The position numbers and the translations under genes were made by a program. A DNA stretch of 64,000 bases. It comes from Pseudoalteromonas sp. N1230-9 (GTDB taxonomy: Bacteria; Pseudomonadota; Gammaproteobacteria; Enterobacterales; Alteromonadaceae). Below, piece by piece: positions 38,810 to 40,830 of this stretch (its first letter is position 1; every line of letters starts with the position of its first letter). The DNA is taken from contig NZ_CP090419.1 in the NCBI RefSeq assembly GCF_032716425.1, positions 1,421,001 through 1,485,000 of the forward strand. The letters run 5' to 3'. A model generated the notes under the pieces. That model saw only the letters and a list, made by a program, of their open reading frames with translations, was not told the origin of the DNA and searched no databases.

Positions 38810-39559
38810 TCAAAAGAGTTTAACTAAATAAACAGTACTCATACCAATGAGTAATGTCACAGAAACGCTTAATAAAGTGCCAAGCATGACATACTCTGTG
38901 AGTTGTTTTTCTTCGCTCGCTTTTAAATCTCCAAAGCGAAAGATTGATTTTGCAGCGAGTAGGAATCCTACTCCTGCATATTCACCCATAAGTATAAAGC
39001 TTAGCATCAGTCCTCGCTCTAAAAGCCCTATACTGTGGCCAGCTGCAGGAATGCTGCCAGATGTAGCAAAGCCTTGTGTGATTTTTTCAAGCATCATGCG
39101 AATAAATACTGAGCTTGGATTTAATACGAGTATATAAGCACAGATAACAAAAAGAGTATCTATAGCAATTAGTTTTTGCCAAATAAGCGCATAAAATTCA
39201 TCATAATCGGTTAACCATACAGCTAGCATCACCAGCACAATACTATGTGCAAGCTGATCAAGTAGAAATGGAACGACCCCTTTATTGGAATAGGATTTTG
39301 CTAAATCAATGAGGAAGTGACTAAGCATAATTAGCAGTGTTGCGCAGACAACACGTGCAAGCTCATTCCAGCCATAATTAAACTCCCAAAGAGCTAAAAT
39401 GATAAACGAAACAATGCCGTGTGTTAAAACATGCAAATACAACTTTGTTGCGCGAAAGTGTCGGCTGTTTCGGTCATTAACCCAGCTCATTGGCTGTAGA
39501 TAAAAGTCAGCAACCAAGTGTGCTAAAAATAGGGCGACAAGTAATAAGGTAAAGCTCAT
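38810..39559 (-). CDS. DUF3307 membrane protein
   Basis: 249 aa with about six or seven predicted membrane helices. The DUF3307 hallmark at the N-terminus is clear: LFLAHLVADFYLQPMSW, followed by LHVLTHGIVSFI and LSHFLIDLAKSYSN, all containing His/Asp residues inside the membrane that could bind a metal or ligand. Function is unknown. Its start overlaps the SatD-like gene stop by 4 bases, so the two are translationally coupled and probably act together. It ends 3 bases from the convergent LD-carboxypeptidase gene. Confidence 0.88.
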   Translation of the reverse strand: MSFTLLLVALFLAHLVADFYLQPMSWVNDRNSRHFRATKLYLHVLTHGIVSFIILALWEFNYGWNELARVVCATLLIMLSHFLIDLAKSYSNKGVVPFLLDQLAHSIVLVMLAVWLTDYDEFYALIWQKLIAIDTLFVICAYILVLNPSSVFIRMMLEKITQGFATSGSIPAAGHSIGLLERGLMLSFILMGEYAGVGFLLAAKSIFRFGDLKASEEKQLTEYVMLGTLLSVSVTLLIGMSTVYLVKLF

Positions 39560-40173
39560 GCTATCAATCCTTTGAGTGTTGTATGGCTGTACTTGATAAA
39601 ACGTTCGACTAATTGGTACTGAGCAAGGTTTAGTAATTTGGTCACATTTTCTCTGCTTGTATTGAGCTCTTTTGCTAGTTCTGCGTGGCTATTATTGCTT
39701 GCTGTAAGGTAATTAAATAAAGCATTCGCTTGTTTTTGGCTCATCTTCTCTAGCAATACCTCTATTAAGGCAATATTGAGTAAAAATCCTTCATCGAGAT
39801 GATTATTTTCCACTTTTATTGTTAACAGCTGATGAGTCATATTATCTAAGCCCTGACCGGATAACGTATACGCACTTCCTGTGGCTGTTTTTATATCGGC
39901 GCGAGGATTATCGACTGTGCCAATGGCCATACTTTGACGTAATTCATAGTTAGCGGCTTTCATTTGTAAATATAAGAGTATCGCTACATGACAGACAGAT
40001 TCTGGTGTTTGTAGCTGTAATTGCAAAGCATCACCACGATAAATGCTAAAACTACTTTCAAAGTGTTGAGTGATAAAACGTAAGCTTTGATCGAGTTGGT
40101 ATAGCATTGCATCGTATTCTTGTTGTGGGATTCTTTGTGATTTAATTAAATCTCCAGTGATCACCGCAATCAT
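39556..40173 (-). CDS. SatD-family protein with C-terminal helix-turn-helix
   Basis: 205 aa. The N-terminal SatD-like region (about 1-135) starts MIAVITGDLIKSQRI and has FSIYRGDALQLQLQ near residue 45; the order and spacing of these motifs recall the metal-binding strand and the GD turn of class III nucleotide cyclases and GGDEF palm domains, though this is only resemblance. The C-terminus (about 150-190) is a helix-turn-helix (HAELAKELNTSRENVTKLLN). It is the first gene of a two-gene unit with DUF3307. Three palindromic operators lie 17 bases upstream, so it may be an autoregulator. Confidence 0.75.
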   Translation of the reverse strand: MIAVITGDLIKSQRIPQQEYDAMLYQLDQSLRFITQHFESSFSIYRGDALQLQLQTPESVCHVAILLYLQMKAANYELRQSMAIGTVDNPRADIKTATGSAYTLSGQGLDNMTHQLLTIKVENNHLDEGFLLNIALIEVLLEKMSQKQANALFNYLTASNNSHAELAKELNTSRENVTKLLNLAQYQLVERFIKYSHTTLKGLIA

Positions 40174-40189
40174 AGCGCATCCTTTTACT

Positions 40190-40207
40190 GTAACTAAAAC
40201 TAGTTAC
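40190..40207. promoter_or_regulatory. Operator-like palindrome 1 of 3
   Basis: GTAACTAAAACTAGTTAC, 7-bp arms around 4 bases. It is the first of three 18-bp palindromes whose starts are exactly 28 bp apart, in the divergent promoter region of satD-like and NYN genes. Confidence 0.75.
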
Positions 40208-40217
40208 TTGTTCATAT

Positions 40218-40235
40218 GTAACCAAATTTGGTTAC
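40218..40235. promoter_or_regulatory. Operator-like palindrome 2 of 3
   Basis: GTAACCAAATTTGGTTAC, a perfect 18-bp palindrome. It is flanked on its right by TGTTGTTCAT, similar to the TTGTTCATAT that follows palindrome 1. Confidence 0.8.
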
Positions 40236-40245
40236 TGTTGTTCAT

Positions 40246-40263
40246 GTAACCAATTTAGGTTAC
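40246..40263. promoter_or_regulatory. Operator-like palindrome 3 of 3
   Basis: GTAACCAATTTAGGTTAC, 6-bp arms GTAACC/GGTTAC. It lies 63 bases before the NYN gene start. Confidence 0.75.
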
Positions 40264-40326
40264 TTTTGAGTGAATTACAAGTAAGTCGTGCTACAGTAGC
40301 AAGATATAAATTATACAAGGTGTATT

Positions 40327-40830
40327 ATGCAAACAATTGAAAAGCCGAGAGTTGCTATCTTTGTCGACGTACAGAATATTTACTACACCTGTAAAGAAAG
40401 TTATGGAAAAAACTTCGATTACAACGCCTTTTGGGCAAAAATGCAGGAGCTGTATACAATTGATGGTGCTATTGCCTATGCAATTTATCGTGGCGATGAA
40501 AAGCAATCACAATTTCAAAATATTTTGCGAGCAATAGGCTTTGAAGTAAAACTTAAGCCGTTTATTCAGCGACGCGATGGCAGTGCAAAAGGCGATTGGG
40601 ATGTGGGTATTACTATTGATATGCTTGAAAATGCACGCAAAGTAGACAAAATGGTGTTGCTGTCTGGCGATGGTGACTTTGCATTGTTATTAGGGCATCT
40701 AGCACACAACTATCAAATTCCTTGTGATGTGTATGGGGCAGAACAATTGACTGCTGATGTACTAAAAAATGCGGCTGAGAATTTTTACTGTATCGACGAC
40801 GGCTTGTTACTTAATAACCGCAGAGAATAG
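40327..40830 (+). CDS. NYN-domain (LabA/DUF88-like) putative ribonuclease
   Basis: 167 aa, a single NYN (PIN-like) domain. The conserved acidic positions are present: Asp in VAIFVDVQNIYY, Asp in GDWDVGITIDML and Asp in VLLSGDGDFALLL, which fits a metal-dependent RNase active site. It is soluble. It is divergent from satD-DUF3307 and shares the 153-base region containing the three 28-bp-spaced operators, so common control is likely. The RNA target is unknown. Confidence 0.88.
   Translation: MQTIEKPRVAIFVDVQNIYYTCKESYGKNFDYNAFWAKMQELYTIDGAIAYAIYRGDEKQSQFQNILRAIGFEVKLKPFIQRRDGSAKGDWDVGITIDMLENARKVDKMVLLSGDGDFALLLGHLAHNYQIPCDVYGAEQLTADVLKNAAENFYCIDDGLLLNNRRE

Follow-up and report, generated by a model that had tools for sequence, protein, structure and literature searches.

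NrdR regulates the ribonucleotide reductase genes and is built from a Zn-ribbon and an ATP-cone. The part of its description that was available to us presents it as a repressor with a nucleotide-binding domain whose site consists of two 16-bp palindromes held to a constrained spacing, the boxes lying 15–16 bp apart, or 25–26 bp apart in S. pneumoniae (PMC12051234). SatD takes its name from secretion and acid tolerance, according to the available section of PMC10326533. In S. pyogenes satD is the single accessory gene in the top essentiality range, found in 178 of 249 genomes, as given in the accessible portion of PMC11323703. Among the matches listed for SatD and DUF3307 in the papers searched, none described SatD as a regulator. 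Here we describe an array of palindromes in front of a satD-like gene in a 64-kb window of a Pseudoalteromonas genome, the window being the whole stretch of DNA that was analysed.

Results

Three palindromes at an exact 28-bp period

The window sequence holds three palindromes of 18 bp each, separated by 10-bp linkers and repeated at a period of exactly 28 bp. A sequence-only reading had placed them at 40190, 40218 and 40246, and an exact search found all three there with the spacing claimed. O3 (40190..40207) is the satD-proximal palindrome, 16 bp before the satD start codon; O2 (40218..40235) lies within the predicted transcribed satD leader; O1 (40246..40263) is the promoter-distal palindrome seen from satD, and its core is the predicted satD -10 box. 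Each is an exact match, assigned to neither strand. The O2 copy is a perfect 18-bp palindrome, and the copies at 40190 and 40246 form 7 of 9 base pairs each. Within the 64-kb window the exact pattern GTAAC-N8-GTTAC matches these three places only, and relaxing the consensus to allow as many as 2 mismatches returns the same three sites alone (6 strand matches against 0.22 expected). The three palindromes are not due to chance. Searching the whole genome, 4.63 Mb in two contigs, with GTAAC-N8-GTTAC gave no sign of a wider regulon, with 5 other places against 4 for a reversed control pattern.

The linkers had also been read as repeating, a claim that did not hold up. The two copies of TTGTTCAT stand at 40208 and 40238, and this distance of 30 bp puts them 2 bp out of step with the period of the array. 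The 10-bp linker between O3 and O2 (40208..40217, no strand) is conserved in length and not in sequence, being altered already in the two closest relatives (G057 and G089). The 10-bp linker between O2 and O1 (40236..40245, no strand) is likewise conserved in length; its sequence is identical in G057 and G089 and different in the other genomes listed, and is thus not conserved beyond the closest relatives. Linker repeats were ruled out as a component of the array on both grounds, register and conservation.

The array accompanies satD in the genus

A pair of palindromes 5–14 bp apart was found in 58 of 99 Pseudoalteromonas genomes, and a SatD-like protein in 65. satD is present in every one of the 58 genomes with the pair, and the pair is missing from all 34 genomes that lack satD. 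In 58 of the 59 loci L035–L093 satD is closely preceded by the exact array, as two or three copies 28 bp apart, the lone exception (L084) having degenerate sites. The number of pairs in each genome is wholly explained by the arrays before satD, 27 triple and 31 double. The sequence-only reading had proposed looking for the repeats upstream of satD homologues in related genomes, and the array is conserved there. Seven satD genomes lack the GTAAC pair: five have other half-sites, one has degenerate sites and in one satD is split at a contig end. GCAAC-like sites at 28 bp were seen in L094, L095 and L098, and TTAGC sites at 28 bp in L096 and L097. The split gene, in G047, is divided between both ends of one contig (L099 and L100), probably a by-product of the point at which a circular record was opened.

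The divergent neighbour encodes an NYN-domain protein (40327..40830, + strand; Pfam NYN E 5.4e-38) that probably lies outside the system. The NYN gene is present in 98 of 99 Pseudoalteromonas genomes, whether or not they have an array, and because of this it was ruled out as a partner and the array assigned to the satD–DUF3307 operon, to which it belongs. Arrays stand before satD with no NYN gene in the fetched locus in 14 of 58 cases (L079–L083 and L085–L093), and no NYN promoter was recognised in a promoter scan or in an alignment of 19 upstream regions. The idea that the array also serves the NYN gene was dropped.

A predicted promoter overlaps the distal palindrome

When the 19 upstream regions are aligned, the block that stands out as clearly conserved in the stretch separating the NYN frame from the array is a hexamer containing TTG, which precedes the distal palindrome. 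This forms the predicted -35 box, TTGTAA (40275..40280, - strand), followed after a fixed 17-bp spacer by the predicted -10 box, TAAATT (40252..40257, - strand), inside O1. In every one of the 44 close relatives the pattern TTG-N17-TNNNNT, which was picked after viewing that alignment, makes the predicted -10 box coincide exactly with the core of the distal palindrome; an earlier, stricter pattern, in which the fifth base of the -35 box had to be A, fitted 33 of 44. The O1 core reads TAAATT in 42 of the 44 close relatives. The O2 core takes 16 forms in the 44 loci, and O3 is a third exact copy in 27 of 44, with 14 core forms. The simplest reading is that O1 may be under constraint in two roles, operator and promoter, and the position of the predicted -10 box within its core suggests autorepression. 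The proposed promoter comes from consensus, and a general promoter scan of the region did not list it. Across lineages the best-scoring -10 box fell within 6 bp of a dyad in 14 of 36, against 6.0 expected by coverage.

A cyclase-like domain joined to a helix-turn-helix

The SatD-like protein (205 aa; 39556..40173, - strand), our proposed autorepressor, combines a class III cyclase-like domain (~1–121) with a C-terminal helix-turn-helix (~146–183). The closest named record, from Pseudoalteromonas, carries a SatD with 100% identity to it. Both domains appear in a confident structure model (pLDDT 95.7), which bears out the helix-turn-helix first read from the sequence. Foldseek matched the model to a class III cyclase (E 3.3e-5, probability 1.00), giving the domain a cyclase (palm) fold. 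D8 and D48 are invariant in 132 of 132 sequences and align with both cyclase aspartates. In class III cyclases these two aspartates bind metal, and an asparagine and an arginine are catalytic. N134 and R138, invariant in cyclase alignment A5, fall in a region where the profile alignment is unreliable, and no residue of SatD could be assigned to them. Searching the PDB with alignment A1 ranked the helix-turn-helix of a zinc regulator first, with a cyclase scoring weakly (E 0.16); with the larger alignment A2 a cyclase became the top PDB match. Pfam helix-turn-helix matches to the protein are weak. The SatD family, PF16264, scores 21.8 bits (E 0.00016, residues 2–109), under the 29-bit gathering cut-off. 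By this score the window protein is a relative of the SatD family rather than a member, hence 'SatD-like', and three SatD members over the cut-off (L151–L153) are linked to it through profile A2.

The spacing outlasts the sequence

Regions upstream of satD were searched without any motif, scanning palindrome widths of 12–26 bp and periods of 14–45 bp. Of 111 loci from the genus and the order, 98 gave a best period of 28, 11 gave 29 and 2 gave another value. These loci were 64 from the genus (L035–L098) and 47 from the order (L102 and L104–L149); we left out L099 and L100 (the split gene), L101 and L103 (repeats of genus genomes) and L150 (a weak match with a long open frame). The 62 order genomes with a match comprised 2 genus genomes, the 47 used and 13 with weak matches only. 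From the class and phylum sets we used L151–L153, L156–L159 and L161, with L154 and L160 set aside as repeats and L162–L166 (E 4e-5 or worse) unused. Thirteen plasmid loci (L176–L188) were used, leaving aside further Agrobacterium records, H18, L189 (Pseudoalteromonas) and H33.

Because many of these loci are closely related, all 132 used were grouped at 60% protein identity, which left 42 clusters. Of these, 25 had a best period of 28 and 10 one of 29, giving 28–29 bp in 35 of 42, Bacteroidota and haloarchaea among them; neither period was best in seven (L117, L142, L156, L157, L161, L181 and L188). Twenty-six of the 42 clusters beat all 30 of their own shuffles, every one of them with a period of 28 or 29, and nine of the 35 did no better than at least one of their 30 shuffles (L085, L094, L121, L122, L124, L135, L148, L159 and L182). 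The best period in L159 depends on the stretch searched, 37 in one and 29 in another, and in L107 the array match is as far as 190 bp upstream of the start that was chosen. A period of 28 or 29 arose in 37 of 630 mononucleotide shuffles, in 71 of 1050 dinucleotide-preserving shuffles and in 13 of 143 upstream regions of other genes, so that all controls lie at 6–9%. At a chance level of 6% the binomial probability of 35 of 42 is ~3e-36; taking instead the 9% seen with other genes would raise this figure but leave it negligible, by estimate rather than by computation.

In the class, phylum and plasmid sets the period came with a score of at least 21 in 14 of 21 loci. These include Sphingomonas and Agrobacterium plasmids (L176 and L177), haloarchaeal plasmids (L178–L180), a Segatella copri plasmid (L186), Vibrio, Salinivibrio and Enterobacter plasmids and, with its start moved, the Pseudomonas fragi plasmid L187. 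With the annotated start L187 has no array; with the start shifted 99 nt downstream, as judged by protein alignment, it has a 29-bp array. The more distant homologues L156–L158, L161, L181 and L188, some of them from GC-rich genomes, showed no 28–29 bp array. The wider distribution of SatD is a lower bound because the Pfam SatD profile is too insensitive a probe, finding 4 of 299 in one set and 1 of 289 in another and missing the window's own genome; a search of the class with profile A2 found 12 of 274.

The exact GTAAC motif is confined to this clade and some relatives; more widely it is the geometry that is conserved. From Pseudoalteromonas to Bacteroidota and haloarchaea, the 28–29 bp spacing outlasts the sequence. 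The half-sites found include GTAAC, TTAGC, GCAAG, GTATA, TGAAC, TGACC, ACAACC, TTCGCC and AATCAA.

Half-site letters track the SatD helix-turn-helix

We compared operator similarity with helix-turn-helix similarity in 37 of the 42 clusters (without L156, L157, L159, L161 and L188), forcing the sites to a period of 28 or 29 in all 37, including L117, L142 and L181, whose free best period differs. The two were correlated (Mantel 0.36, p 0.0005), a result that is supportive and not proof because operator and helix-turn-helix share ancestry and the sites were forced to 28–29 bp. With the N domain held constant the operator–helix-turn-helix correlation was 0.27 (partial Mantel, p 0.0005), and with the helix-turn-helix held constant the operator–N domain correlation was 0.09 (p 0.14). 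This pattern is what would be expected if the SatD helix-turn-helix reads the half-sites, with the weight that shared ancestry allows.

A membrane protein is the recurrent partner

The DUF3307 membrane protein (249 aa; 38810..39559, - strand), the proposed regulated target, is encoded in a frame that overlaps satD by 4 nt. It matches PF11750 (DUF3307) at 103.4 bits (E 1.2e-29, residues 6–117), passing the 23-bit cut-off. satD and the DUF3307 gene are both present in 65 of 99 Pseudoalteromonas genomes and both absent from the other 34. The columns invariant in alignments A3 and A4 all lie outside the Pfam stretch 6–117 (those of A4 are G174, I177, G178, E181, R182, G198, F199, K204, R208, G210, E222 and G227), and six distant operons (L151–L153, L176, L177 and L180) have a short partner resembling the C-terminal part only. 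On account of these two findings, what is conserved as the partner of SatD may be the C-terminal membrane domain, and not the stretch that gave DUF3307 its name.

The DUF3307 gene directly follows satD in the haloarchaeal plasmid loci L178 and L179. Phage records searched gave no match to SatD or DUF3307. Viral contigs gave five DUF3307 loci, with 29-bp arrays in three (L191, L192 and L194) and satD cut off in L190. Very small plasmids also carry these genes, satD–DUF3307 in L187 (Pseudomonas fragi, 10 kb) and a DUF3307 gene in H33 (Klebsiella pneumoniae, 4.4 kb). The presence of satD–DUF3307 on very small plasmids suggests a mobile accessory module. In L188, a Sphingomonas insulae plasmid with no array found, a satD-like gene annotated as hypothetical and a DUF3307 gene adjoin an annotated Pycsar effector and an adenylate/guanylate cyclase.

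Discussion

We infer, with a probability of roughly 80%, that the array is the operator of the satD–DUF3307 operon, at which SatD dimers would bind the palindromes, cooperate, hide the -10 box and repress their own operon in response to a nucleotide and metal. Through the C-terminal helix-turn-helix a SatD dimer would sit on each 18-bp palindrome, and adjacent dimers would touch at the fixed 28-bp step. The complex would cover the -10 box in the O1 core and exclude RNA polymerase, leaving the operon repressed. The N-terminal cyclase-like domain probably holds a nucleotide and a metal via Asp8 and Asp48, which would make repression responsive. The SatD-like protein had been named as the natural candidate binder from its position and its helix-turn-helix, and it is still the best candidate: it co-occurs with the array, the operator co-varies with its helix-turn-helix, and the modelled structure has that helix-turn-helix at its C-terminus.

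The direction of control depends on the promoter. Arrays upstream of a promoter can serve activators, and in some lineages the best-scoring -10 box lies outside the palindromes, so SatD might bind the array and activate its own operon. However, all 44 close relatives have a -10 box that fits the O1 core, with the remaining palindromes downstream of it, which is a repressor arrangement, and we regard activation as improbable. That SatD is the reader at all is our own deduction from sequence, and a different DNA-binding protein could bind the array with SatD a mere neighbour. Such a protein would have to accompany satD all the way from Bacteroidota to haloarchaea, yet in annotated plasmid regions only a membrane protein recurs beside satD across phyla. 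Since, in addition, the genus array pair occurs only with satD, its counts are accounted for by the arrays upstream of satD and the array letters track the SatD helix-turn-helix, a separate binder seems quite improbable. The palindromes might instead work in RNA, as leader hairpins or attenuators, given that O2 and O3 would be transcribed and that two sites score as terminator-like on the + strand. O1 would contain the -10 box and hence go untranscribed, and a fixed 28–29 bp step over unrelated half-sites suits DNA geometry better than RNA folding, which makes an RNA role scarcely credible.

A further proposal extends autorepression by SatD rather than denying it. SatD and its partner could form a toxin-antitoxin-like pair in which SatD holds down a harmful membrane protein. 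The strict linkage of the two genes (65 genomes with both, 34 with neither), which are gained and lost together, and the occurrence of pairs on plasmids fit this picture, as does the report, in the part of PMC11323703 available, of satD as an essential accessory gene of S. pyogenes, present in 178 of 249 genomes. Against it, the DUF3307 proteins match no family in PADLOC, where SatD itself gives just two weak matches (E 0.021 and 0.026), and in viral contig L193 a DUF3307 gene is present with no recognised satD. We regard it as a possibility, though less likely than not. A repressor of a harmful neighbour could explain the essentiality of S. pyogenes satD.

More speculatively still, SatD-like proteins would be widespread nucleotide-responsive repressors of bacteria and haloarchaea, in which the cyclase-like domain chains dimers along the DNA at 28–29 bp, with half-sites alternating at ~14 bp, near 4/3 of a helical turn. 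The membrane effector would be harmful when released, which would account for satD as an 'essential accessory' gene in S. pyogenes. We think this general scheme rather doubtful as a whole.

Autorepression by SatD would supply a family hitherto known by name alone, from an acid-tolerance operon, with a fold, an operator rule and a function open to testing, that of a local autorepressor. It would add a type of operator whose spacing outlives its sequence across bacteria and archaea and, if the rule 'geometry fixed, letters free' is true, operators would become predictable from the protein. Why satD should be essential in strains that have it, yet missing from many strains of one species, could on this basis be tested directly.

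Among described systems the SatD family itself, PF16264, is related to the window protein by N-terminal homology, and its three members over the cut-off (L151–L153) share both the array geometry and the membrane-protein partner. With the class III nucleotidyl cyclases the modelled SatD domain shares the fold and two aligned aspartates; unlike them, it is fused to a DNA-binding domain. In design the nearest analogue is NrdR, which differs in domains, target and spacing. Like NrdR, SatD would be a repressor with a nucleotide-binding-type domain and spaced palindromes. The Pfam families listed for the SatD-like protein include no match to a Zn-ribbon or an ATP-cone; in their place it has a cyclase-like domain and a helix-turn-helix, and it would regulate its own operon. 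The sequence of the NrdR box is more constant than the half-sites of the SatD operator. A helical turn of DNA is 10.5 bp, and the SatD step of 28–29 bp is no whole number of turns.
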